Part shown: piece by piece, positions 1,178-33,064 of the stretch
How positions within the stretch are numbered: position 1 is the stretch's first letter
Layout: each line of letters starts with the position of its first letter
From: an uncultured Gammaproteobacteria bacterium
GTDB lineage: Bacteria > Pseudomonadota > Gammaproteobacteria > PS1 > Pseudothioglobaceae
Reading direction: 5' to 3'
NCBI GenBank assembly: GCA_902556205.1
Contig: CACDVH010000001.1
Span: 1-64,000, forward strand
Length of the DNA: 64,000 nt
Notes under the pieces: generated by a model
Database searches by the model: none
What the model saw: only the letters and a program-made list of their open reading frames with translations
What the model was told of the DNA's origin: nothing
Program-made: the position numbers and the translations under genes

Positions 1178-1792
1178 ATGAAGAGTAAGGTTATAAAAGT
1201 GGCTCTGACTGGCGGCATTGCATCAGGCAAAAGTTTAGTTAGTGATTTACTTGAAATTCATGGATGCAAAATTATTGATCTTGATGTCATTTCACGTGAA
1301 GTTGTGATGCCAGGCACCGAGGGCCTCCAGGAATTAGTTGATACTTTTGGTAAATCAATTCTATCGAGCGATGGCTCACTTGATCGCAAAAACTTAAGAG
1401 ATGTTCTGTATAAAAAAGGAAGAAATAGGGCATTAATTGAACAGATCCTTCACCCAAAGATTCTTCATAAAATGAAAGCAATGATGGATGACTGTCATGA
1501 GGGAGTGATGATAGTTGTTATACCTCTTCTTGTTGAAAAAGAACTTTGGGGCCCATTTGATAGAGCTATCTTAGTTGACTGTGAAAATGAAACGCAAATT
1601 AAGCGCCTCATGGTAAGAGATGATATTGACTCAGCAAAAGCCAAAATAATGTTGATGGCTCAAGCGAGTCGTGAGCAACGTCTTAAGCTAAATGAACATC
1701 TTCCAACTGATATCATTGAAAATAACTCGAGATTGAGCGACCTTAAAGATAAAGTTCAATTGCTTAATCAAAAGCTGTTTTCACTTATCTAA
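1178..1792 (+). CDS. coaE: Dephospho-CoA kinase
   Basis: Catalyses the last step of coenzyme A synthesis, ATP-dependent phosphorylation of the 3'-hydroxyl of dephospho-CoA. The 204-residue length is typical. The P-loop GGIASGKS is at residues 12-19, followed by the conserved DLDVISREVV segment with the acidic residue that activates the substrate. The LID and CoA-binding region around HPKI and IPLLVE (about residues 90-120) is also present. It stands alone between tRNA-Met and the convergent ybbP-like gene, 22 bp from that stop codon. The ATG start gives the usual short N-terminus before the P-loop. Confidence 0.95.
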   Translation: MKSKVIKVALTGGIASGKSLVSDLLEIHGCKIIDLDVISREVVMPGTEGLQELVDTFGKSILSSDGSLDRKNLRDVLYKKGRNRALIEQILHPKILHKMKAMMDDCHEGVMIVVIPLLVEKELWGPFDRAILVDCENETQIKRLMVRDDIDSAKAKIMLMAQASREQRLKLNEHLPTDIIENNSRLSDLKDKVQLLNQKLFSLI

Positions 1793-1814
1793 CTAAAATT
1801 AAGAGTCCAAAAAA

Positions 1815-4349
1815 TTACTCATTTCGAATCAGTGGATACACCTTGGGGCTAAATATGCTCCGATTTGCAAGTAAGATGAGTATGAACGAAACTGCTGCTG
1901 TTGAAACCAGTATCCATAAGGCAAGACCAAAGTCAAAGAACCATGTAAGCTGAAGAGCATTCTCTACGACAAGGTAAGAGCTAACAGTGGCCACTGAAAG
2001 CGCAAAAAATATTAAAGTCCCATAGATAACAGCAAACTCCATTGTCATCGCCTTAAGTATTGTTGGAAAGTCAACGCCGAGTATCTTATAGATAAGATTG
2101 TTATACCTTCTGAATGTGGTCTGAACCAAAACTGCACTCACAATAACAATTAAACCCACAACAATAACAATCAACGATATGGCTGTCACTGCTATGAATA
2201 CCTTATTTAATACTTCACTCACCTGTTTAAGGATTCTATCAATCTTGATTGCTGAAACGTTTGGAAATTTATCAACCACCATGGCCAAAATCTCACTGGA
2301 TGGCAAGCCAGACTTTAAAGTTCCGACATACTCATAAGGTAGTTTGTTTGCAAAAGCTTTATTAATGATGATAGCAAAATTAATTGAGATATCTCTATAG
2401 TCGACCTCTCTAAAGTTCGTAATTGTGCCCGTTACGTCTCGACCTAATATGTTCAGAATAATCTTATCATTGATTTTCATTCCCAGATCATATGCTGCCC
2501 TGCTATCCATTGAAATGAAGAGCTCATCCTCAATACCAGGCTCCCACCACTTGCCCTCAACTATTGGATTATCAAGCTTTGGTTTCTCAGACCAGGAAAT
2601 TCGTCTATCACCTCTAACCACCCATGCTGATCTGTTATTTTGAGAAACAACTTCTTCAATAGGTGTTCCATTGAGTGAGATAAAGGATGCACTTGCCATT
2701 GGACTAAATTCAATCTCTGCATTAGGGTCAACTTCTTTTATATAGGATTCAAGATCACCCTTAATATCTCTGTCAATGCTAACAAAGAATAAATCTGGTG
2801 CTAAAGATGGAATGCTATCTGATATTTCTTTTTTTAAGTTGTTAGCTACAAAACTTAGCGTTAAAAGCAGAGTCAACCCTATTCCCAAGGATATGGTCAT
2901 AATTGGTGCAAGTGATTTTTTTGCTACGATATTTCTATAGGCTATCCTGTAACTATTATTTGAAAATTTATAAATCCTCTTAATCAAAGCTATTAATAAT
3001 CTTGATACTCCATAAAAAATAAGCATAGTGCCAAAGAAAGACACAAAGTAAAAGACTGTATAAAGCTTCTGATTAGTTTGAGAAACAAAGTAGATAGTCA
3101 AGACTAAAACCAAAATAGTTAATAGTAGAATATTCTTAAATGAGAAATTTAAGCTAACAGGATTAAATGTATTACGGAATAAGGAGGCTGCTTTAATCTC
3201 ACTAATTGAATATAGAGATGGAATAGAAAAAATTAAAACCACCAGCAGACCAATGAAGAAAATGTTGAGATAGCCTAAGGCACTAAAAGAGGGTTGCAAA
3301 TTAATTCCTAGGGACTCTGGAAGAAACTCATTCGCCAATAATGGACTAAAAACACCTATCAAATATGCGATAACTGAGGTCAAGATTAGAATTAGCATAA
3401 TTTCATAAAAATACATGGTTTGAATAAAGCTTGATGGAAATCCAATGGACTTTTTAACTGCTATGCTGGTGTTACTTTGGTTAATAAATGATAAAAGTGT
3501 ATTGCTAATTCCAATTCCTGCTATGACCATGGCACTTACAGAGACTAAGTTTAAAAAATTTGAAAAATTGTCTATGACTCTGCTTAAACTTTGCCCACTT
3601 TGACCTGGTAGACGCGTCTTGATTCTATCGTCATAGGCAATAATAGAATTAATGATGTCTTCTTGCTCCTTAATCTCATTTAGTGTATTGAATTTAATTC
3701 TATACTTATGGTCAAGAAAACTACCCCCTGAGCTTAGCCCAAATTTCTCATAACTGTCCATACTAATAATCGCGAATTCGCCAAAAACAGCGCTTTCAGC
3801 AAGATCTGGAACAGATGCCACTAGGCCGGCAACTTCAAATTTTTGACCCATGATTACAATGTCATCACCTTCACTTACATTAAGAAGTTTTTGTATACTC
3901 TCATTAATTAAGACATTTGGCTTTTGATTGTTAGAGAAAATTTTCTCTGATGCATCCTGAGGAGTTGTTTCAACTTCACCATAGAGTGGATACTTATTAT
4001 CAACTGCCCTTAGCTCGGTGAATACTGGGGACTCGCCTTCCTTGGATAGCATGGTCGCAAACTCTATTGTTGAGCTGACCATTCCAAGCTCATTAAACTG
4101 CTCAATAACCTGATTTGGAAGTGGATCTATGTCACTATCTACTTGAATATCACCGCCCAAAAGCTCCTTAGAATTATTTTCAATCTCACTATTTAGCGCC
4201 TCTTTAATTGAAAACGTTAGCGAAAGAAGTAGCAGACTGACAAATAGAGTTGATATGACTACCCATAGTTTTTTATAGCTTCTTGAGAAATCCCTTAAGG
4301 CGTATTTATTGATTAATTTGAATTGCTGAAAATCAAACAATATGACCAT
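1815..4349 (-). CDS. ybbP: YbbP-like ABC transporter permease (FtsX domains)
   Basis: A large inner-membrane permease of the MacB/LolC/FtsX superfamily. There is one N-terminal membrane segment, a long periplasmic domain, a central bundle of helices, a second periplasmic domain and three C-terminal helices. FtsX-type segments are visible at VSAMVIAGIGISNTL, IMTISLGIGLTLLL and near the end. Its ATPase partner is the overlapping upstream gene. The longest reading starts at 4397, but this would overlap the ATPase gene by 65 bp. I prefer the ATG at 4349 (17-bp overlap, 844 residues); a TTG at 4340 is also possible. In E. coli this pair lies divergent to tesA, exactly as here. The substrate is unknown; lipid or lipoprotein-related export is inferred. 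Confidence 0.88.
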   Translation of the reverse strand: MVILFDFQQFKLINKYALRDFSRSYKKLWVVISTLFVSLLLLSLTFSIKEALNSEIENNSKELLGGDIQVDSDIDPLPNQVIEQFNELGMVSSTIEFATMLSKEGESPVFTELRAVDNKYPLYGEVETTPQDASEKIFSNNQKPNVLINESIQKLLNVSEGDDIVIMGQKFEVAGLVASVPDLAESAVFGEFAIISMDSYEKFGLSSGGSFLDHKYRIKFNTLNEIKEQEDIINSIIAYDDRIKTRLPGQSGQSLSRVIDNFSNFLNLVSVSAMVIAGIGISNTLLSFINQSNTSIAVKKSIGFPSSFIQTMYFYEIMLILILTSVIAYLIGVFSPLLANEFLPESLGINLQPSFSALGYLNIFFIGLLVVLIFSIPSLYSISEIKAASLFRNTFNPVSLNFSFKNILLLTILVLVLTIYFVSQTNQKLYTVFYFVSFFGTMLIFYGVSRLLIALIKRIYKFSNNSYRIAYRNIVAKKSLAPIMTISLGIGLTLLLTLSFVANNLKKEISDSIPSLAPDLFFVSIDRDIKGDLESYIKEVDPNAEIEFSPMASASFISLNGTPIEEVVSQNNRSAWVVRGDRRISWSEKPKLDNPIVEGKWWEPGIEDELFISMDSRAAYDLGMKINDKIILNILGRDVTGTITNFREVDYRDISINFAIIINKAFANKLPYEYVGTLKSGLPSSEILAMVVDKFPNVSAIKIDRILKQVSEVLNKVFIAVTAISLIVIVVGLIVIVSAVLVQTTFRRYNNLIYKILGVDFPTILKAMTMEFAVIYGTLIFFALSVATVSSYLVVENALQLTWFFDFGLALWILVSTAAVSFILILLANRSIFSPKVYPLIRNE

Positions 4350-21911: not shown

Positions 21912-22883
<972 letters not shown>

Positions 22884-22906
22884 TCAAATGAGTATTATAA
22901 GCTGTC

Positions 22907-25240
22907 TTGAAAAAAAATAATAAACGAACCACTCAAAATACCCCTGTAAATAATCCGCGCTCTAAACTTGCAAGTGAGTCAATTTTTATTTTGCTCTTGA
23001 CAATTGGGGCTGTTTTCTTTGTTTCTCTTATTACGGGCTCAGCCTCTGAGGACCCCTGGACTGGCGGGGCTGAATTATCTAAGCCAGTTGAAAATAGTGC
23101 CGGAATATTTGGTGCATATTTAAGAGATATATGCTTTGGTATCCTCGGTTATGTTTCATATGTTTTGCCAATTTCCATTATTTGGCTGGGCTACAACTTT
23201 CATCGTGACGCTAATAAAGAGCGTCAAAATCAGCTGACCTTTCTTATTCGATTCATTTCATACCTTATAATGCTATTCTTTCTTGCGGCACTCGCCCATC
23301 AATATGCTCCTGAAATAAAGGTAATGGATGGTCTTAAAGAAACATTTTTAGCTGGAGGAATGATTGGAAAATCCATGCATGAACTGCTTTTTTATGAGCT
23401 TTTTGGTAGCTCATCGACTCTAATTTATATCGGAATTATCCTGGTAAGTTTCAGCATAGCCTCAAGCGCTTCATGGAAAAATATTGTAGGAGCTATTCTC
23501 AAAAGCCGGCCTCTTAAAGAAAGAGCCTCAAAGGTAGCTAAAACAGAAAAAACCAAACCAGAAATTATTAGCTCCAAAACATCAGCGTCTCAAGAAACTT
23601 CATCCTCTGAGAAACCTCAAAAACTAGAGAAGCCCAAAAAGCAAGAGAAGTCAGATAAACCAAAAAAGCAAGACAAGCCTCAAAAAGAACAAAGCAGTAA
23701 CCTCTTTAAGGCAGGATTAATAGGGGGTCTTCCTGATCTAACTCTTCTAGATGATGTTGATAATTCTGGTCTAGGCTATACAGAAGAATTCCTTGTAGAG
23801 ATGGGTCAACAAGTTGAAATCAAGTTAAAAGATTTTGGATTTGATGTTTCTATTACTGCAGTGACGCCAGGTCCTGTTGTTACCCAATTTGAAATATCTC
23901 TTGCGCCAGGAATCAAGGTAAGCCAAATTATGAACCTGAATAAAGACCTCGCTCGAGCGCTTCTTGTTGAGAGCGTGAGGATTGTTGATGTCATTCCTGG
24001 AAAGCCAGTCATTGGGCTTGAGATACCAAATAATACTCGCGAGATGATAGGCCTCAAAGAGATACTATCTAGCGATGCATTTACTAAGGCCAAGTCAACA
24101 CTATCCATGGGACTTGGAAAAGATATTAATGGACAGCCTGTTGTAGTAGACCTAGCTAAAATGCCTCACCTACTAGTTGCAGGCGCAACAGGCATGGGAA
24201 AGTCCGTTGGACTGAATGCAATTATATTAAGTATTCTATATAAGGCAACTCCAGAGCAAGCAAGGTTTATTATGATTGACCCTAAAATTGTAGAGCTCGC
24301 CTCATATGCAGACATACCTCACCTGTTAACGCCGGTTGTCACCAATATGAATGAAGCTGCAAGTGCGCTCTGGTGGTCAGTCAATGAAATGGAGCGGCGC
24401 TACAGTCTTTTGGCAAAGTTTGGGGTTAGAAATATTGAGTCCTTTAATGAAAAACAAAGTCGGGCTAAAAAAGCAGGCAAGCCTCTTTTAGACCCTTCTT
24501 TTAATCCAGAAACAGCCAAAGAAGGCGAGGAGCAGCCTGAGCTTGAGGCGCTTCCACTCATAGTTATAGTAATTGATGAGTATGCTGATATGCTAGGCGC
24601 TCTAGCCCAAGAAGATAGGGCAAAATCGAAGCGCGTTGAGGGGCTCATTGTAAGGATTGCACAAAAAGCGCGTGCTGCAGGCATGCACCTTATTGTTGCA
24701 ACGCAAAGGCCAAGCGTTGACGTAATAACTGGGCTGATTAAATCTAATATCCCCACCAGGGTTTCTTTCAAGGTCTCGTCAAAAACGGACTCCAGGACTA
24801 TTCTTGATCAGGCTGGAGCTGAACAGCTTTTAGGCATGGGCGATATGCTTTATATGGCTCCAGGAATTGCTCATCTGACAAGGGTACATGGTGCTTTTGT
24901 TGAAGATAGTGAGATTTTAAGGGTAGTCAAACATCTTAAAAAGAACTCAAACCCTAACTATCTTGACGGCATATTAAACCCAAAATCGGAGCCAGTAGGC
25001 GACAAGGACCCAGGACAAAACAGTGGTGAGCTTGATCCGCTTTTTGATGAGGCCGTTCAGATAGTAACCTCAACCAGAAGAGCGTCAATTTCAAGCCTTC
25101 AAAGGAGAATGCGAATTGGCTACAACCGAGCTGCACGAATTATTGAGGATATGGAGATAAGCGGGATTGTGAGCTCAATGAATAGCGCTGGAAATAGAGA
25201 CGTCTTGGCACCAGAACCTATTGAGCCAGACGACAATTAA
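22907..25240 (+). CDS. ftsK: DNA translocase FtsK
   Basis: A septal DNA pump that clears and aligns chromosome termini. The N-terminus has four membrane helices (about 25-180), then a short Lys/Pro/Gln-rich linker (about 200-265), much shorter than in E. coli. The RecA-like motor has Walker A GATGMGKS near residue 427, Walker B VIVIDEYADML, and ATQRPSVDVITG. The C-terminal winged-helix gamma domain (about 710-775) reads KOPS-type sites. The start is TTG at 22907, because no ATG lies between the last stop and the first membrane helix. AT-rich -10-like sequence (TATTATAAG) sits 5-8 nt upstream. Confidence 0.95.
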   Translation: MKKNNKRTTQNTPVNNPRSKLASESIFILLLTIGAVFFVSLITGSASEDPWTGGAELSKPVENSAGIFGAYLRDICFGILGYVSYVLPISIIWLGYNFHRDANKERQNQLTFLIRFISYLIMLFFLAALAHQYAPEIKVMDGLKETFLAGGMIGKSMHELLFYELFGSSSTLIYIGIILVSFSIASSASWKNIVGAILKSRPLKERASKVAKTEKTKPEIISSKTSASQETSSSEKPQKLEKPKKQEKSDKPKKQDKPQKEQSSNLFKAGLIGGLPDLTLLDDVDNSGLGYTEEFLVEMGQQVEIKLKDFGFDVSITAVTPGPVVTQFEISLAPGIKVSQIMNLNKDLARALLVESVRIVDVIPGKPVIGLEIPNNTREMIGLKEILSSDAFTKAKSTLSMGLGKDINGQPVVVDLAKMPHLLVAGATGMGKSVGLNAIILSILYKATPEQARFIMIDPKIVELASYADIPHLLTPVVTNMNEAASALWWSVNEMERRYSLLAKFGVRNIESFNEKQSRAKKAGKPLLDPSFNPETAKEGEEQPELEALPLIVIVIDEYADMLGALAQEDRAKSKRVEGLIVRIAQKARAAGMHLIVATQRPSVDVITGLIKSNIPTRVSFKVSSKTDSRTILDQAGAEQLLGMGDMLYMAPGIAHLTRVHGAFVEDSEILRVVKHLKKNSNPNYLDGILNPKSEPVGDKDPGQNSGELDPLFDEAVQIVTSTRRASISSLQRRMRIGYNRAARIIEDMEISGIVSSMNSAGNRDVLAPEPIEPDDN

Positions 25241-25266
25241 TTCCTGAATAATTTAATGTTAAGGGC

Positions 25267-26229
25267 ATGTTGAATAGAGTTTGGTCAATTGCAATTATTC
25301 TAGCGGCACTTGCAACTTCATGCATACTCTTTCTTCAGCCCAGCCTTGACCAGGTAAATCTATTGCCTGATCAAGGTGCTGCCTGGTATTTTTGGAAAAG
25401 ACCCGACCCTAACTTTGCTTCTCAAGCAAGCGCATGGGGTGGATATTTAGTTCATCAGTTTTTTATATGGGGTGTAATAATTTGGGCAAAAAAAAATCGA
25501 GAGGCCCTCAAAGATCGGACAAAGCTTCATTTCATTAACTGGGTTGCCCTTGCTGGAACTGCTGCTTTTGGCCTGCTCCATTTTTTCCAGACAGCTATCT
25601 GGTACGATGGCCTTGCACAGAATGTATCCGTTTTTTCATCACAGGCCTCTGTCATTCTACTACTGGTTGTTGTTCTAATGATTGAGGCGCCGAGGAGAGG
25701 CGTATTCTTTGGGACAGGTGGAAAGAATTTCATTGGAGTCAAACCCTTTCTAATTAAATACCATGGTTATTATTTTTCATGGGCAGTAGTCTACACCTTT
25801 TGGTTTCATCCAATGGAAACCACTTGGGGTCATTTATTTGGTTTTTTCTATACCTTCTTATTGATGATTCAGGCTGGATTTATTTTTACTCGTGTCCATA
25901 CAAATCGATGGTGGACTCTCACTTTAGAGGTTTTGGTTTTATTTCATGGAGTTGTTGTTGCGTTATTAGCAGGCCAGGAATTTTGGACAATGTTTCTTTT
26001 TGGTTTTTTAGCCATGTTCATAGTGACTCAGATGCATGGACTTGGGCTATCAAGACTATTAAGATGGCTTTTTGGTGGATTATTTTTGATAGCTCTAATT
26101 GTTATTTATTCCGAGAGAGGTTGGGGGCAGGCTCATGAAATTCTAAGAATTCCAGTGATTGACTATATTCTAGTATTTGTTTTGACTGCTCTTATTCTAA
26201 TCATTAAAAGACTTGTCAGAAAAAATTAG
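25267..26229 (+). CDS. Polytopic membrane protein, unknown function
   Basis: I do not recognise this 320-residue protein. It has about eight or nine hydrophobic helices. Features that look conserved are aromatic/charged loops: WYFWKRPDPNF near residue 42, the WGGYLVHQFF helix, and a central helix pair with YHGYYFSWAVVYTFWFHPMETTWGHLFGF, rich in His, Trp and Tyr. The buried histidines and aromatic residues could bind a metal, haem or quinone, but this is only inference. It follows ftsK by 26 bp, where many gammaproteobacteria have lolA. Confidence 0.75.
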   Translation: MLNRVWSIAIILAALATSCILFLQPSLDQVNLLPDQGAAWYFWKRPDPNFASQASAWGGYLVHQFFIWGVIIWAKKNREALKDRTKLHFINWVALAGTAAFGLLHFFQTAIWYDGLAQNVSVFSSQASVILLLVVVLMIEAPRRGVFFGTGGKNFIGVKPFLIKYHGYYFSWAVVYTFWFHPMETTWGHLFGFFYTFLLMIQAGFIFTRVHTNRWWTLTLEVLVLFHGVVVALLAGQEFWTMFLFGFLAMFIVTQMHGLGLSRLLRWLFGGLFLIALIVIYSERGWGQAHEILRIPVIDYILVFVLTALILIIKRLVRKN

Positions 26230-26360
26230 GGTCTATTTACAACAAGACTAGTTCTGATATCTGAATAAAATTCCATACTACATTAGATAGAATTTTCTAG
26301 ACAGGGTCATTTATTGTTTAAAAATAATCCCTAAATAACACTCATTATAAGAAAAAGTTC

Positions 26361-26389
26361 TTGACCTATGATTTTGCATACTATATATT
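26361..26389 (+). promoter_or_regulatory. Strong sigma70 promoter upstream of the peptide-binding protein gene
   Basis: TTGACC (26361-26366) and TATATT (26384-26389) are separated by exactly 17 bp. The predicted start near 26396 lies only a few bases before a terminator-like hairpin (26399-26429), so transcripts of the downstream ABC operon would have to pass that structure. Confidence 0.7.
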
Positions 26390-26398
26390 GAGGGGAGG

Positions 26399-26429
26399 CC
26401 AACAAACGTTTTGTTAGTTGGTTTTTTTT
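26399..26429 (+). terminator. Terminator-like hairpin in the leader of the peptide ABC operon
   Basis: CCAAC-AAAC / GTT-GTTGG (arms 26399-26407 and 26413-26421, one internal mismatch) is followed by eight T residues, a textbook intrinsic terminator on the plus strand. It could end the 320-residue membrane protein transcript, or act as an attenuator for the promoter just upstream. A second hairpin, GTGTCTA/TAGACAC (about 26443-26462), follows before the ribosome-binding site. Confidence 0.65.
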
Positions 26430-26482
26430 GTTTAATAATTTGTGTGTCTAAATTTCTAGACACCTTCAAAAGGAGAAATGCA

Positions 26483-28057
26483 ATGAAAAAAACTTTAAGC
26501 ATTGTTTTGTCAGTGCTGGTCATGGGTATTTTTTCACCAGCTTCAGCGAATACGATCAAATGGTCAATGCCTGGTGATTCTTTAACACTTGACCCACATG
26601 CACAAAACGAAGGACCAACTCATATGGTCTCTCGACAAGTATATGAAGGTTTAGTGACTCCAGGCATTAACATGGAAGTCCTTCCTCAGCTTGCAGAGTC
26701 TTGGACGACAACTGCTGACGATACATGGATATTTAATATACGCAGAGGCGTAACTTTTCATGATGGATCATCTTTAACAGCGGGTGATGTCGCTTTTAGT
26801 ATCAATAGGGCTAAAACAGCTCCATCGGATATGGTAGATTTAATTAAAAGTGTTAAATCTGCAAGAGCGATTGATGATCATACAGTTGAGGTAAAGACAG
26901 ATGGCCCAAATCCTATTCTCTTAAACCAATTAACTCAAATATTTGTAATGTCTGAGGCTTGGTCAAAGGCAAATGGATGTGAAGCTTCTTATAATTGGGA
27001 TGCAGGTGAAACTTCATATTGCGCGTCTAATGCAAATGGAACTGGACCATTCGAAATTACTTTCAGAGAACAGGATGTAAGAACTGTTTTTGAAAAGAAT
27101 AATAACTGGTGGGGAAATCACTACAAACACAACATTGATAAAATTGAATTACTTCCAATTAAGAACGATGCAACAAGAGTTGCAGCACTTCTTTCTGGAG
27201 AGATTGATTACACTAATGTTGTTCCGGTCCAGGATATTAAAAGAATCGATTCTTCTATGGGCCATGCTGTAAAAATGACCCCTCAAAATAGAACGATTTT
27301 CTTTGGCATGGATCAAGGATCTGCTGAATTGAACTCATCAAACATCAAAGGGAAAAACCCTTTTGCTGACAAAAGAGTTCGTCTGGCTATGTACCACGCT
27401 CTAGATATGGATGCTATCAAAGACAAGGTAATGAGAGGACAAAGTGTGCCAGCAGGTATTATTACTGCGCCAGGTGTTAATGGCCACACAGCAGCTCGTG
27501 ACCAGAGAATGGCTTATGATCCTGAAACATCAAAAAGACTTTTAGCTGAAGCGGGCTATCCTGATGGGTTTGAGGTCACATTAGATTGTCCTAATGATCG
27601 CTATATCAATGATGAGGCGATTTGTGTAGCAGCTATTAGTATGTTTGCAAAAATTGGAGTTAAGGTTAATCTTGATGCAAAAACTAAGAGCCAGCACTTC
27701 TCTGAGGTTAAAGAGGGTGATGCTAATGGTATGACAAGTGACATGTACATGTTAGGTTGGGGCGTTCCAACTTTTGATAGTCACTATGTATATTCATACT
27801 TATTTGAAAGCTCTGGAAGCTGGAATAAAGTAAATTTCAGTAATGCTAGAGTAGACGAGTTGGTTGCTGCAATGGGTGTTGAAACAGACCTAGATAAAAG
27901 AAATGCTATGATTGCTGAGGCTTGGGATATTACTCAAAACGACGTAACATACCTTCCTTTGCACCACCAGGTAGTTAACCAAGCATCAAAAAGTAATGTC
28001 GACGTTCCGATTAGAATGAACAACGAGCCATTATTTAGATTTGCAAAAGTAAACTAA
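26483..28057 (+). CDS. ABC transporter substrate-binding protein (SBP_bac_5, peptide/opine type)
   Basis: A periplasmic binding protein of the Dpp/Opp family, 524 residues. The signal peptide MKKTLSIVLSVLVMG..., cleaving near PASA-NT, is followed by SLDP-type ligand-domain sequence (TLDPHAQNEGPTHMVSRQVYEGL), FHDGSSLTAGDVAFS, ATRVAALLSGEIDY, RVRLAMYHALD and a WGVPTFD segment. The frame extends upstream to 26411, but the ATG at 26483 has an AGGAG site 7 nt before it and begins the signal peptide. It heads the operon with two permeases and a double ATPase. Substrate class (di/oligopeptide or related) is from the family only. Confidence 0.9.
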   Translation: MKKTLSIVLSVLVMGIFSPASANTIKWSMPGDSLTLDPHAQNEGPTHMVSRQVYEGLVTPGINMEVLPQLAESWTTTADDTWIFNIRRGVTFHDGSSLTAGDVAFSINRAKTAPSDMVDLIKSVKSARAIDDHTVEVKTDGPNPILLNQLTQIFVMSEAWSKANGCEASYNWDAGETSYCASNANGTGPFEITFREQDVRTVFEKNNNWWGNHYKHNIDKIELLPIKNDATRVAALLSGEIDYTNVVPVQDIKRIDSSMGHAVKMTPQNRTIFFGMDQGSAELNSSNIKGKNPFADKRVRLAMYHALDMDAIKDKVMRGQSVPAGIITAPGVNGHTAARDQRMAYDPETSKRLLAEAGYPDGFEVTLDCPNDRYINDEAICVAAISMFAKIGVKVNLDAKTKSQHFSEVKEGDANGMTSDMYMLGWGVPTFDSHYVYSYLFESSGSWNKVNFSNARVDELVAAMGVETDLDKRNAMIAEAWDITQNDVTYLPLHHQVVNQASKSNVDVPIRMNNEPLFRFAKVN

Positions 28058-28066
28058 GAAAAACCT

Positions 28067-28100
28067 ATATTTTCTGGCCAGTTATCTGGCCAGAAAATAT
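28067..28100 (+). repeat. Perfect 15-bp inverted repeat between binding-protein and permease genes
   Basis: ATATTTTCTGGCCAG (28067-28081), loop TTAT, and its exact complement (28086-28100) lie 10 nt after the binding-protein stop. There is no following T run, so it is less likely a terminator than an mRNA-stabilising stem. Such a stem would leave abundant binding-protein message and less message for the permeases, a common pattern in ABC importer operons. Confidence 0.75.
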
Positions 28101-28141
28101 TACAATATTACAATACCCGCTCCCCTATTTCAATTTAATTC

Positions 28142-29119
28142 ATGTTCAGCTATTTTTTTAAAAGACTATTACAAGCAATTCTTGTAATGATTGTTGTTGC
28201 TTTTGTCTCATTCTCTTTATTCAATTTTGTTGGCGATCCAGTAATCAGCTTGACTGGAGAAGACTCTTCAATTGAAAGACAGGCTGAGGTTAGAGAAGCT
28301 ATTGGGCTGAACGATCCTGTCTATATTCAATTTTCAAGGTTTCTAGGCAATGTTATTCAGGGTGATTTTGGAATATCCTATCAGTTGAAAAGAGAGGTGT
28401 CGGATTTAATTGCAGAGCGAATGCCGGCCACTTTAGAATTAGTATTCGTATCTGCCTTGCTTGCTATTATAGTTGGAGTCATTTTAGGCGTCTATACAGG
28501 CATTCATAGGGACAGCTTTATTTCAAATATTATCCTTGTTGTTTCACTTGCTGGCGTTTCTCTTCCAACATTTATCATTGGGATAATGCTGATTTACTTA
28601 TTTTCAGTGGTACTTGGAGTACTCCCCTCTTTTGGGAGAGGCGAGGTTATTGACCTAGGTCTATGGTCAACGGGCTTTTTAACTGTCTCTGGACTTAAGG
28701 CACTGATTCTGCCATCGGTCACATTAAGCTTATTTCAAATGACTTATGTCATCAGATTAGTACGCGCAGAAATGATGGAAATACTTCAAACTGATTATAT
28801 TAAATTTGCTAAAGCTAGGGGTATTAAGAAAAACACTATCAATTATAAACATGCACTCAAAAACGGACTCATTCCTGTAATTACGATTACTGGTATTAAT
28901 ATTGGAACCTTAATTGCATTTTCAATCATTACAGAAACAGTTTTTCAGTGGCCCGGCATGGGGCTACTCTTTATTAATGCAGTATACTTTGTGGACATAC
29001 CGATAATGTCTGCCTACATGATTATGGTTGCTTTTATTTTTGTCATGATTAATTTTATTGTAGATATCACCTATTATTTTATTGATCCCAGGATAAGAAT
29101 TAAGGATGAGATGAGTTAG
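28142..29119 (+). CDS. Peptide ABC transporter permease, DppB/OppB-like
   Basis: Inner-membrane permease, 325 residues with six likely helices. The N-terminal FFKRLLQAILVMIVVAF helix, GLNDPVYIQFSRFL, and the EAA loop (ARAKGIKKN-like: FAKARGIKKNTINYKHALKNGL) that contacts the ATPase are characteristic of DppB/OppB. It forms a heterodimer with the next gene product, which starts 3 bp downstream. Confidence 0.93.
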   Translation: MFSYFFKRLLQAILVMIVVAFVSFSLFNFVGDPVISLTGEDSSIERQAEVREAIGLNDPVYIQFSRFLGNVIQGDFGISYQLKREVSDLIAERMPATLELVFVSALLAIIVGVILGVYTGIHRDSFISNIILVVSLAGVSLPTFIIGIMLIYLFSVVLGVLPSFGRGEVIDLGLWSTGFLTVSGLKALILPSVTLSLFQMTYVIRLVRAEMMEILQTDYIKFAKARGIKKNTINYKHALKNGLIPVITITGINIGTLIAFSIITETVFQWPGMGLLFINAVYFVDIPIMSAYMIMVAFIFVMINFIVDITYYFIDPRIRIKDEMS

Positions 29120-29121
29120 CC

Positions 29122-30045
29122 ATGCTATTAAAAACATTTAATAAAATTTATGACACTGATGTAGGTTATAGCTTTTTTAATTCAAAAATTGCAATTATTT
29201 CCTCAGCTGTCTTATTCATTATTTTTCTTTGTTCGGTTTTTGCTGGAATAGTCTCTCCTTACAATCCTTTTGACCCAGCCTCAGTCTCATTAATGGATGC
29301 TTTTACTCCGCCTTCGTGGTCAGAGGGTGGAAATCCGAGCTTCGTTCTTGGAACAGACCAACAAGGAAGAGACATGTTTTCGACAATGATCTATGGATCA
29401 AGAATTTCATTAATTGTAGGCTTTGCATCAATCCTTTTTGCCATGGTGCTTGGAGTGTTCCTTGGAGTTACTGCGGGTTATATCGGAGGCAGGTATGAGA
29501 TCATTGTAATGAGGCTGACCGACGTCCAGTTAACAATACCAAGTATTCTCATGGCCCTACTGGTTAATGGTATCGCTAAATCAGTCATTTCTCAGTCAAT
29601 GCATAGTGAGATGGCGATCTATGTATTAATTTTTGCAATTGGAATCTCCGAATGGCCACAGTTTGCCAGAGTCTCGAGAGCATCTACCCTCGTAGAGAAA
29701 AACAAAGAATATGTGTCAGCATCAAGAATTATAGGTTTATCAAATATTGTAATTATGTTTAAACATATCTTGCCAAATATACTTAGACCTCTCCTTGTGA
29801 TTGCTACAATTGGATTGGCCCTTGCAATAATTACAGAATCTACATTAAGCTTTTTAGGTGTTGGTGTCCCGCCAACAACACCATCACTAGGGACTTTAAT
29901 AAGGTTTGGAAATAGTTTTTTATTTTCAGGCGAATGGTGGATTACATTTTTTCCAGCTATCTTTTTAATCGTTTTAGCATTATCCATTAACCTATTGGGT
30001 GACTGGATGAGAGACGCCTTAAATCCAAAATTAAAAATAAGATGA
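29122..30045 (+). CDS. Peptide ABC transporter permease, DppC/OppC-like
   Basis: Partner permease, 307 residues. It has the OppC_N type first helix, then GTDQQGRDMFSTMIYGSRISL, a DppC/OppC hallmark, and the EAA loop SASRIIGLSNIVIMFKHILPN. It ends LLGDWMRDALNPKL as in the family. Its stop overlaps the ATPase start by 4 bp. Confidence 0.93.
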   Translation: MLLKTFNKIYDTDVGYSFFNSKIAIISSAVLFIIFLCSVFAGIVSPYNPFDPASVSLMDAFTPPSWSEGGNPSFVLGTDQQGRDMFSTMIYGSRISLIVGFASILFAMVLGVFLGVTAGYIGGRYEIIVMRLTDVQLTIPSILMALLVNGIAKSVISQSMHSEMAIYVLIFAIGISEWPQFARVSRASTLVEKNKEYVSASRIIGLSNIVIMFKHILPNILRPLLVIATIGLALAIITESTLSFLGVGVPPTTPSLGTLIRFGNSFLFSGEWWITFFPAIFLIVLALSINLLGDWMRDALNPKLKIR

Positions 30046-31760
30046 GTTTACTGAAAGTTAAAAATTTAAACATCAGCTATCCAACTAGGAAAGAAACAAT
30101 TGTTGCTAGCAAAGATGTTGAATTTACTCTGGAAAGAGGGGAGATACTAGGAATAGTCGGCGAATCCGGTTCTGGAAAATCTACTATTGCAAATGCCATC
30201 ATCAATTTAATTGACCCTCCAGGAGAAATAACGGCTGGTTCAATTAAAATTGATGATAACGAATTAAGAGATAATGAGGATGTCATTCAAAAAATTAGGG
30301 GAAAGAAAATTGGATTTGTTTTTCAGGATCCTCAAACATCATTAAATCCTCTATTTAAAATAAAAGATCAATTGATCGAAACCATTCAAACGCACCTAGA
30401 TTTAGATTATCAAGACGCATTAAAAAGATCTATTCAGCTCTTAGAGGAGGTGGGTATCGATAATGCTGAAAAAAGAATTGAAGACTACCCACACCAGTTT
30501 AGTGGGGGCATGCGTCAAAGAGTTGTTATTGCATTGGCAATAAGCTGTGAGCCTGACTTAATTATAGCCGATGAGCCCACAACTGCTCTAGATGTAAGTA
30601 TTCAATATCAAATACTTGAACTACTTAAAGACCTGACTAAAAAAAGAAACTTAGGTGTGATTATCATTACTCACGACATGGGAGTTATTGCTGAGACGAC
30701 AAACAAAGTTATTGTTATGAGGTATGGTGTTATTGTTGAGCAAGGAGATACAAAAGAACTATTAACAAATCCAAAATCGACTGAGGCTAAAAGCTTAGTT
30801 ATTTCAGTGCCGCCTACTAATAAAAAAATTGACAGATTCAAGCTGATTAGCCCTGAGGGCAAAGAGATTACATCTGACTCAAAAAATTTAACAAAAAATA
30901 TTATAAAAACTTGGGGGATTAGAGAAAATACAAATCAAAAATTATTAGAGCTGGCTAGTGTTACAAAAATTTTTGACGACCAATCTATAGCGAATACCTT
31001 TTCATTTGGGTCAAAAAATAATGCTGAAGAAACAATCGTCAAAGCAGTTGATGATGTTTCTTTTGAGCTCTTTGAAGGTGAAACCCTTGGCTTAGTTGGT
31101 GAGTCTGGCTCAGGAAAGTCAACAATAGCAAAAATTATTACAGGGCTTGTAAGACCAACTAATGGTGAAATTCTTTATAACAATATCTCACTCTATAATT
31201 CAAAAAGAAAGTACCAAATCGACAAGAGTAGAGGACAGATTCAGATGATATTTCAAGACCCTTATTCGTCTTTAAATCCAAGATTTAAAGTAAGGGAAAT
31301 AATATCTGAGCCAATAAAGCTTTTTCAAAAGAATATTAGCTCTGGTGAGCTCCAACAAAATCTTTATGATTTAATCGACATTGTAGGAATGTCAAGACAG
31401 TCCTTGGATCGATATCCTCATGAATTTTCTGGTGGACAAAGACAAAGAATATCAATTGCAAGAGCTTTAGCAACAAGGCCACGCTTATTAATTTGCGATG
31501 AACCTACTTCTGCTCTGGATGTAAGCATACAAGCACAAGTATTAAACCTCTTAAAAGATATTCAGGATGAGCTTCACCTTACAATGTTATTTATCAGTCA
31601 TGACCTTCCTGTCATTAGACAAATGTGCAATAGAATTATCGTGCTTAAAAATGGTATTGCTTGTGAAACAAAAGAAAGTGAAGAGTTATTCAATAGTCCA
31701 GAACACCCCTACACTCAAGAACTTATTAGGCTCATGCCTAAAATTGAATCTATAATTTAG
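30042..31760 (+). CDS. Fused double ATPase of peptide ABC transporter (DppD-DppF / YejF type)
   Basis: Two ABC domains in one 572-residue chain. The first has Walker A GESGSGKST at residues 40-48 and signature FSGGMRQRV. The second has Walker A GESGSGKST near 352 and signature FSGGQRQRISIARA. Both have Walker B (IIADEPT, LICDEPT) and H-loops. The first half corresponds to DppD and the second to DppF; each ends with the family's C-terminal peptide-transporter extension (TPEAKSLV- and HPYTQEL-like). The fused form is known from YejF and related importers, so this is a natural variant and not an artefact. Confidence 0.93.
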   Translation: MSLLKVKNLNISYPTRKETIVASKDVEFTLERGEILGIVGESGSGKSTIANAIINLIDPPGEITAGSIKIDDNELRDNEDVIQKIRGKKIGFVFQDPQTSLNPLFKIKDQLIETIQTHLDLDYQDALKRSIQLLEEVGIDNAEKRIEDYPHQFSGGMRQRVVIALAISCEPDLIIADEPTTALDVSIQYQILELLKDLTKKRNLGVIIITHDMGVIAETTNKVIVMRYGVIVEQGDTKELLTNPKSTEAKSLVISVPPTNKKIDRFKLISPEGKEITSDSKNLTKNIIKTWGIRENTNQKLLELASVTKIFDDQSIANTFSFGSKNNAEETIVKAVDDVSFELFEGETLGLVGESGSGKSTIAKIITGLVRPTNGEILYNNISLYNSKRKYQIDKSRGQIQMIFQDPYSSLNPRFKVREIISEPIKLFQKNISSGELQQNLYDLIDIVGMSRQSLDRYPHEFSGGQRQRISIARALATRPRLLICDEPTSALDVSIQAQVLNLLKDIQDELHLTMLFISHDLPVIRQMCNRIIVLKNGIACETKESEELFNSPEHPYTQELIRLMPKIESII

Positions 31761-31924
31761 TTAGGTTGGAAGAGCTTGTGATTTTAATGTCTGACGGTAA
31801 TGAAATTCTTTCAGAATTATCTCGAAAAACAAACTTCATCGAGTAATAAAAAGCGCTAAAAAAACACCTGCAATATATTGAAAAAATGTGTATTATCTGC
31901 GGATTCTGTTAATCACATATTGTC

Positions 31925-33064
31925 ATGAAAAAAGAATTTAGCTTCGGAACTCAAGTAAGAAAGTCTCCCTATTTTGATGCAACTGTTCGCTGGGGAGCTC
32001 AAGGATTTTCAGTATACAATCATATGTATATCCCAAGAGACTTTGGTGATCCTGTTGAAAACTTCTGGAGCCTAGTCAATGACGCAATACTTTGCGATGT
32101 TGCTGTAGAACGTCAGGTTGAAATTATGGGTCCTGATGCCGCTCAGTTTGTTCAACTATTAACTCCAAGAAACCTTTCTGAATGTGCCGTTGGCCAATGC
32201 AAGTATGTTCTTATTACTGATGAGAATGGTGGTGTTCTTAATGATCCTGTTTTATTAAGACTTGCAGAAAATCACTTCTGGCTTTCTTTGGCTGACAGCG
32301 ATATTCTGATGTGGGCAAAGGGAGTTGCAGTTCACTCAGGCCTCAATGTGCATTTATGCGAACCAGATGTCTCGCCTCTTCAGCTTCAAGGCCCCAAATC
32401 AGGAGATATTGCTAGGGCTATTTTTGGGGACAGGATTGATGGCCTTAAGTATTATTGGCTTGAGGAGTTTGAGCTTAACGGCATACCACTCATCATTTCC
32501 AGAACAGGCTGGTCAAGCGAGTTAGGCTATGAAATCTATCTTCGTGATGGTAGTCGTGGAAATGAGCTATGGGACCACATTATGAAAATTGGAGAGCCTA
32601 TGGGACTAGTACCTGGACATACCTCAACGATTAGAAGAATTGAAGGTGGAATGCTCTCATACCAGGCAGATATGGATTGCACAGTTAATCCTTTTGAACT
32701 TGGTCTGGGTAGGCTCGTTGATCTTGAGATGGACGAAGACTTTATTGGCAAAGCCGCACTGAAAAAAATTAAATCTGATGGGATTAAGAGAAGTCAAGTT
32801 GGACTTGAAATATCATGCCCTCCTCTTGAGCATCCCAATACAACCTATTGGCCAATAATGTCTGGTTCAAAAAAAGTGGGCTACGTAACTTCTGCAGTTT
32901 ACACACCGCGACTTGACAAAAATATTGCGCTTGCTATTATGGATATTGATTTTTCTGCCCTGGATACAACTGGAGAGGTTAAAACACCTGAGGGCAATTA
33001 TCCCGTCAAGGTAGTGCAAAAACCATTCTATGATCCTAAGAAAAAAATTGCTTCTAAATCATAA
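31925..33064 (+). CDS. dmdA: Probable dimethylsulfoniopropionate (DMSP) demethylase, DmdA-like (GcvT fold)
   Basis: A tetrahydrofolate-dependent methyltransferase of the glycine-cleavage T fold, 379 residues. The N-terminal part (SVYNHMYIPRDFG, CDVAVERQVEIMGPDAAQF), the middle (ISRTGWSSELGYEIYLRDG) and the C-terminal GCV_T domain are complete. The VAVERQVEI block and overall layout are nearer to DmdA than to GcvT, and no gcvH or gcvP is nearby. DmdA moves a methyl group from DMSP to folate, leaving methylmercaptopropionate. The two downstream CoA-type genes fit that pathway. GcvT-like dimethylglycine or sarcosine enzymes remain an alternative; a tree would settle it. Confidence 0.75.
   Translation: MKKEFSFGTQVRKSPYFDATVRWGAQGFSVYNHMYIPRDFGDPVENFWSLVNDAILCDVAVERQVEIMGPDAAQFVQLLTPRNLSECAVGQCKYVLITDENGGVLNDPVLLRLAENHFWLSLADSDILMWAKGVAVHSGLNVHLCEPDVSPLQLQGPKSGDIARAIFGDRIDGLKYYWLEEFELNGIPLIISRTGWSSELGYEIYLRDGSRGNELWDHIMKIGEPMGLVPGHTSTIRRIEGGMLSYQADMDCTVNPFELGLGRLVDLEMDEDFIGKAALKKIKSDGIKRSQVGLEISCPPLEHPNTTYWPIMSGSKKVGYVTSAVYTPRLDKNIALAIMDIDFSALDTTGEVKTPEGNYPVKVVQKPFYDPKKKIASKS

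Follow-up and report, generated by a model that had tools for sequence, protein, structure and literature searches.

We analysed a 64,000-nucleotide stretch of DNA from an uncultured Gammaproteobacteria bacterium of the Pseudothioglobaceae (hereafter, the window) and focused on the region in front of a transporter operon, all features of which lie on the forward strand. The first gene of the operon codes for a 524-aa substrate-binding protein of the SBP_bac_5 family (26483..28057, with its ATG at 26483), and is followed by two permease genes and a double ATPase gene of the same transporter (28142..31760) and then by DmdA-like, OsmC-like and enoyl-CoA hydratase genes. Direct reading and a promoter scan placed a sigma-70-type promoter at 26361..26389, consisting of TTGACC (26361-26366), a 17-nt spacer and TATATT (26384-26389), with the core motif TTGAC-N13-TACTATA. 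With +1 assumed to lie 7 nt past the -10, transcription is predicted to start at 26396. Folding, covariation and geometry identified a putative terminator stem-loop, hairpin 1, which has the form CCAAC.AAC...GTT.GTTGG and an interrupted stem, and which spans 23 nt from C26399 to G26421 (26399..26421); it runs directly into a tract of eight T (26422..26429). A second hairpin of 7 bp (26444..26463), supported by folding and covariation, has the arms GTGTCTA (26444-26450) and TAGACAC (26457-26463) and lies between the terminator and the ribosome-binding site, an AGGAG Shine-Dalgarno sequence at 26471..26475 that was read directly and aligned across leaders. An earlier sequence-only reading had reported the promoter, a hairpin with eight T (26399-26429), a second hairpin and AGGAG, and we found each of these as described. 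The extent that it gave, 26361-26462, had the layout right and stopped one base short of the end of hairpin 2 at 26463.

Taken alone, the promoter match is at chance level and not significant: we found 27 promoter-like sites in 22000-32000, compared with 26.8 +/- 5.3 in shuffles. A candidate alternative promoter at 26411-26439 was rejected, its -10-like stretch, judged by eye, not being kept across relatives. The hairpin at 26399 was missed by a simple terminator scan because its stem is interrupted. When we used a fuller terminator score, a formula of the d'Aubenton-Carafa type known from the literature, here combined with ViennaRNA energies and not calibrated for this genus, the observed value was reached by 0 of 300 dinucleotide shuffles of 26390-26482. 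Of 20 regions downstream of genes in the window, 1 scored above zero, as did 1 of 20 regions upstream of genes. For the binding-protein gene, the upstream region in this count was defined by an extended TTG start at 26411, and the 26399 terminator itself is therefore not among the 20. Folding of the stretch 26395-26490 was matched by only 5 of 200 shuffles (z -2.14), and the longer stretch 26230-26490 folded no better than its shuffles (z -0.47, 61 of 200 as good). The strongest evidence for a leader is comparative, and comes from the sequences of relatives.

We searched 29 genomes of the genus, many of which are incomplete assemblies and which, as relatives, are not independent. An orthologous binding-protein gene was present in 12, and the promoter, hairpin 1, T-tract and hairpin 2 preceded it in 12/12. 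In the G012 assembly, the orthologous binding-protein gene (L007/L035, G012:C24:1357-2925) has one in-frame stop behind a leader that looks intact. A covariance model, R1, was built from the 12 leaders and searched over the same 29 genomes, which located the leader unit directly before a dppA-like gene in G005, G009, G016, G017, G018 and G023. The best family for the dppA-like gene was NF043070 (dipeptide-binding protein), at 740 bits against a cut-off of 1005, and its product is about 27-29% identical to the binding protein of the window. Thus, six of the seven dppA genomes examined carry the leader; the exception, G026, has dppA at another place and without the unit, and the leader is therefore not indispensable. 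One genome (G010) has a second leader copy before a window-type gene that is cut by the contig end; this copy could reflect either a genuine duplication or the assembly. The resulting set comprises 19 leaders from 18 genomes, and all 19 strong model matches sit before a transporter gene. TTGAC is present in 16 of the 19 and a TATA-type -10 in all of them; TACTATA is kept in 15 of the 19 aligned leaders and the rest of the spacer varies. The T-run has at least six residues in 17/19 (range 4-8, median 7).

In a MAFFT alignment of the 12 leaders, 93.1% of cells formed standard pairs, as against 29.1-43.7% when slid. Two-sided changes occurred at 7 of 15 pairs, and 20 cells were changed on both sides compared with 7.6 in shuffles. 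Neither the number of pairs with a two-sided change (26 of 500 shuffles reached the observed value) nor that of further pair types (463 of 500) was clearly above shuffles in these 12 leaders. The alignment of 19 leaders was fitted to the model and is hence biased in favour of the structure. In it, pairing extends to 95.9% of cells and two-sided changes to 10 of 15 pairs, including 7/7 in hairpin 2, and the observed covariation values were reached by 0 or 1 of 500 shuffles. Compensatory changes include CCAAC/GTTGG to CCAGC/GCTGG and, in the inner stem, AAC/GTT to AGC/GCT. In both alignments the rows are related, so the counts are not of independent events. Hairpins 1 and 2 both covary in these alignments, and conservation of the hairpins across relatives, which had been named beforehand as a check, was borne out with compensatory changes in both the 12- and the 19-leader sets.

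The distance between promoter and hairpin is nearly constant. Hairpin 1 begins 8-10 nt from the -10 in 19/19 leaders, or at +3 to +5 of the predicted start, leaving 2-4 nt in front of it in every case. The eight nucleotides past hairpin 1 end at +28 to +36 when the start is set 7 nt after the -10; if the -10 is instead read at 15-nt spacing (TATATA), these positions shift by about two. The terminator score is above zero in 16/19 leaders and below zero in G024, G015 and G009, and the stems of hairpin 1 are weak (-4.0 to -9.2 kcal/mol). At the level of sequence, the unit has the hairpin and following U-rich tract of an intrinsic (Rho-independent) terminator. With only 2-4 nt before hairpin 1, a classical competing antiterminator could not form before the decision, and on the predicted start, whichever spacing is used for the -10, none of the 19 leaders has room for one, as a classical RNA attenuator or riboswitch would require.

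These observations suggest that the leader is a promoter-coupled attenuator that ends part or most of its transcripts at about +30, a reading to which we assign a probability of roughly 0.55. RNA polymerase would start at about 26396 and make hairpin 1 almost first, from about +4, and the T-tract would then end part or most transcripts at about +30 to +34, yielding RNAs of about 28-36 nt. Escaping transcripts would continue across hairpin 2 and the ribosome-binding site to reach the transporter genes; in these transcripts, hairpin 2 would probably protect or present the 5' part of the mRNA. The sequence-only reading had proposed, as one of two alternatives, that transcription mostly stops after ~30 nt unless helped on by a factor. 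This is the better supported of its two readings, with the start, the efficiency and the factor being predictions. Counting against an attenuator are the weak stems, the three leaders that score below zero, the two covariation measures close to shuffles, the small-gene leaders that have a 5' hairpin and no T-tract, and dppA without a leader in G026; likewise, we infer the start site, actual termination and an adjustable escape.

If short RNAs are produced, they could act in trans as small RNAs, with the mRNA as a by-product. Small RNAs commonly end in a hairpin with a U-tail. An RNA of this sort, with effects in trans, is described for the greA leader of E. coli (PMC6829880). However, the structure of hairpin 1 is conserved and the sequence of its loop and inner stem is not, so there is no conserved seed, and every one of the 19 strong matches lies before a transporter gene; we consider a trans-acting RNA very unlikely.

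To place the leader in its genomic setting, we compared gene order in 19 stretches of 19 genomes, leaving out G014; G002 has no close homologue. The comparison gave INDEPENDENCE from neighbours and from the gene behind: the leader stays with the transporter gene while the preceding gene changes. On one side the transporter is flanked by trxB and ftsK, and on the other, in several genomes, by an aminopeptidase-like gene (assigned by eye), a DmdA-like gene, OsmC and enoyl-CoA hydratase. Immediately ahead of the leader lies ftsK itself, a gene for a small secreted-type protein (LolA-like, at a guess by eye), one for a protein without a family match, or another gene. The adjacent upstream gene is divergent in G028, G024 and G015, and in G013 and G018 the leader unit lies at other places. 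In the window, the preceding gene runs in the same direction and stops 170 nt short of hairpin 1, and it has no terminator within 120 nt of its stop (best score -82.6).

The arrangement in the window would allow hairpin 1 to be the 3' terminator of the preceding gene, an alternative that the sequence-only reading had raised together with an erroneous promoter call. The preceding gene points the same way and has no other terminator, and the promoter match alone is at chance level. Nevertheless, the unit goes with the transporter gene across differing neighbours, three of them divergent, and to other loci in two genomes, from which it follows that hairpin 1 is not part of the preceding gene; we regard this alternative as extremely unlikely and have abandoned it. 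A terminator could also insulate the operon from upstream read-through, with the operon's own transcripts escaping either by starting inside the 5' arm or through poor termination near the start. Such a role would suit the lack of a terminator behind the upstream gene of the window, and the 8-10 nt between -10 and hairpin in 19/19 would suit the proposed escape. A start inside the arm, however, would lie 9 or more nt past the -10 and begin at C residues, and the divergent neighbours in G028, G024 and G015 send no read-through, yet the unit is kept there. Insulation thus strikes us as improbable.

The leader is also independent of the coding sequence behind it. The slot holds a dpp set (dppA, two permeases, two ATPases) in G005, G009, G017 and G023, and probably also in G016, where the contig ends but the downstream side is the same. 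It holds a SAR11-like set in the window and in most other genomes with a window-type gene. The leader of G017 (dpp) is 78-81% identical to those of G027, G014 and G007 (SAR11-like), as compared with about 28% identity between the binding proteins. Among 80 loci kept of 103, the binding protein is 79-91% identical in many records titled Alphaproteobacteria or Pelagibacter-type and 71% identical in one more distant record, and the coding part was therefore probably shared with SAR11 by horizontal transfer. The simplest account would be that the coding part was replaced behind a resident leader. If so, this would be a natural case of a regulatory leader outliving its operon, since one and the same leader, at a single locus, precedes dpp in some genomes and a SAR11-like transporter in others. 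The position before dppA is compatible with control by peptide or nitrogen supply, but is no evidence for it.

Several further observations concern this locus. For the binding-protein gene (26483-28057), identity to L042-L111 is 88-91% in most alphaproteobacterial records, which suggests transfer between Alpha- and Gammaproteobacteria. A 15-bp inverted repeat at 28067-28100 separates the binding-protein gene from the first permease gene. The SAR11-type locus L098 has a similar TTCTGGCCAG...CTGGCCAGAA repeat, so the repeat may have travelled with the coding part; our guess is that it protects an mRNA 3' end. The DmdA-like (DMSP demethylase-like) gene adjoining the transporter at 31925-33064 scored 360 bits, below the NCBIfam model cut-off of 410, and also occurs at this locus in two genomes with a dpp transporter, G005 and G023.

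The pattern TTGAC-N(12-14)-TACTATA occurs three times in the genome of the window, at the transporter leader and before two tandem genes for 71-72-aa hydrophobic proteins. Matches were obtained in 28 of 29 genus genomes, with a reversed control pattern also giving some. Of 48 distinct motif stretches in the fetched loci, 29 precede relatives of the small genes, 13 precede transporter genes and 6 precede something else. We scored 28 of the 29 small-gene leaders (one holds an N), taking the -10 at 15-nt spacing. Their hairpin starts at +2 to +7, with 18 of 28 at +4, and the terminator score is above zero in 0/28. Their T-run is 2-6 residues long with a median of 3, versus 4-8 and a median of 7 in the 19 transporter leaders, for slightly different counting windows. 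A hairpin at the 5' end is therefore a wider theme in the genus, to which the transporter leader adds a long T-tract and hairpin 2 as its specific parts. The small genes themselves code for hydrophobic proteins of 71-73 aa and were seen in tandem at L143:1226-1444 and 1661-1876 (- strand) and at G000:C3 around 149503-149960; they share this rare promoter motif with the transporter leader and likewise have a hairpin right at the 5' terminus. They lie between dapD-like and ubiA-like genes (by eye) in many genus genomes, and the one tested had no Pfam or NCBIfam match over cut-off. In L149 and L161, the small-gene promoter and first part of the leader precede a different frame of 62-63 aa (MKRRMRNIIKQL...), and the 3' half of the small-gene hairpin is absent.

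Stabilising stem-loops at the 5' terminus are known from ompA and papA, and no T-tract is part of the concept. Emory and colleagues are said to have reported in 1992 that such stem-loops stabilise mRNA in E. coli. The main rival to an attenuator is that hairpin 1 has this role, protecting a highly expressed mRNA against 5'-end-dependent decay, with the T-tract incidental or serving another purpose and termination minor. Like the ompA and papA loops, hairpin 1 lies within about 4 nt of the 5' end on the predicted starts, at 2-4 nt in 19/19, and a 5' hairpin that lacks a long T-tract is also present in the 28 small-gene leaders, which share the promoter motif. The transporter leader differs from those loops in its conserved, terminator-grade T-tract, and a stabiliser leaves both the T-run of at least six in 17/19 and the terminator score above zero in 16/19 unexplained. 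We judge stabilisation to be unlikely as the main function, although it is a serious contender, and the contrast between small-gene and transporter leaders provides a ready-made test of terminator versus stabiliser.

Model matches at E <= 0.01 occurred in 21 of 83 family genomes, all of this genus and with small-gene matches included, and under stricter filters 0 of the 54 family genomes outside the genus had a match at E <= 0.01. From the 80 loci kept we tested 70 with non-genus homologues of the binding protein (L041-L111 without L107); the model matched 0/70 at E <= 1, and the positive control, L120, was found. Two of these loci, L041 and L098, contain no leader DNA because their sequence begins with the gene, and in the 68 left the terminator score was above zero in none. 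Three weak model matches were inspected by eye: two of them, L133 and L135, resemble ordinary terminators that follow other genes, and the third, L137, looks like chance. We also considered whether the leader is ancestral to dppA in the class. In a class sample, 13 of 274 genomes matched at E <= 1e-80, giving 14 places (loci L187-L200). Of these, 12 were scored, L199 (no start found) and L200 (a weaker place of G287) being left unscored and L196 having only 86 nt upstream; 0/12 were above zero as terminators, and this origin was rejected.

Given that no classical antiterminator is possible before the decision, release would need a factor or another early event; control, if any, could be exerted by a factor on polymerase or on the nascent hairpin, by the rate of elongation or by the choice of start site. 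A search of NusG, ANTAR and cold-shock domains did not find a dedicated factor or antiterminator for the leader. An RfaH-like paralogue was rejected, the genome having one single-copy NusG-domain match only, and its two cold-shock domain matches show nothing specific to the leader. ANTAR-type leaders have two hairpins with hexaloops that carry A at position 1 and G at position 4; such hexaloops were present in 0/19 leaders. ANTAR matches were found in 22 of 29 genus genomes and in 11 of the 11 of those at least 90% complete, and the presence of the protein does not follow the leader. Five genomes (G001, G002, G011, G019 and G026) have an ANTAR match and no leader-model match below E 1e-5, the matches at 8.3e-5 in G001 and 4.8e-5 in G026 being small-gene leaders. 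Five others (G003, G012, G015, G023 and G024), all incomplete assemblies, have the leader and no ANTAR match. An ANTAR protein was thus rejected as the obvious partner. The genome of the window does have an ANTAR response regulator (Pfam), next to a putative ammonium-transporter gene (by eye), and nothing ties it to the leader; in L202, such a regulator (1078-1680) lies downstream of an ammonium-transporter-like gene.

Known RNA families and leader peptides were looked for as well. At the gathering threshold, Rfam gave four matches in the whole window, all tRNAs, and a relaxed scan of 26330-26500 gave seven, all far below gathering and with a lowest E of 1.4. We found no conserved leader peptide: the short frames in the first 40 nt merely translate the hairpin arm and the T-tract, they vary from genome to genome, and two of the 19 leaders (L118 and L119) have none. 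Our literature search returned no description of the transporter leader and no work on a Thioglobus dppA transcript.

Taken together, we propose that the leader is probably a built-in brake on a nutrient-uptake operon. If termination is real, this would be an extremely compact attenuator, in which the terminator hairpin is nearly the first thing transcribed; the geometry would exclude the usual RNA switch mechanisms, and release would have to act on early polymerase. A stronger version holds that the promoter and a +3 terminator form a module from which escape needs a dedicated host factor within the first ~30 nt, either Q/AlpA-like or a binder of the nascent hairpin, and that marine bacteria have kept this module on a nutrient transporter through horizontal exchange of the transporter itself. 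We regard that version as doubtful.

By analogy, the leader might work like the E. coli greA leader or like AlpA/Q-controlled promoters, without being a tested member of either. In the greA leader, as described in PMC6829880, about two thirds of transcripts stop as 37-59-nt RNAs (GraL) and about one third read through. The likeness to the transporter leader lies in a promoter with an intrinsic terminator immediately behind it in the 5' UTR and in short RNAs as the product, which for the transporter leader are predicted; that account gives GraL no settled effector. GraL differs in having about 19 nt before the terminator, where the transporter leader has a predicted 2-4 nt, and two promoters, where we see one (PMC6829880). 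Unlike GraL, the transporter leader has a second conserved hairpin and fronts two different transporters, and it precedes SBP_bac_5 and dppA-like genes rather than greA, which places it outside GraL. AlpA of Pseudomonas aeruginosa, which has been likened to phage Q antitermination, lets polymerase pass a terminator at the alpB promoter (PMC7969949). There too a promoter runs into an intrinsic terminator, a likeness that for our leader holds at the sequence level. The AlpA-controlled terminator begins 54 nt from the start, and AlpA works via a putative promoter element located between -35 and -10 (PMC7969949); for the transporter leader, our search of NusG, ANTAR and cold-shock domains found no such protein, and most of the spacer outside TACTATA is not conserved. 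Among predicted attenuators, the ABC-leaders shown in PMC2965389 can form antiterminators, unlike the transporter leader, which in showing none resembles the rimP-leader (of the rimP/greA/rnk-leaders) as presented in PMC2965389; the main text of that paper does not mention dppA or oppA. More broadly, E. coli is described as often having 3' ends within 5' UTRs (PMC7815308). Premature termination ahead of genes for ABC transporters has been predicted widely, and attenuators, according to the same survey, can hop between genes (PMC2965389).
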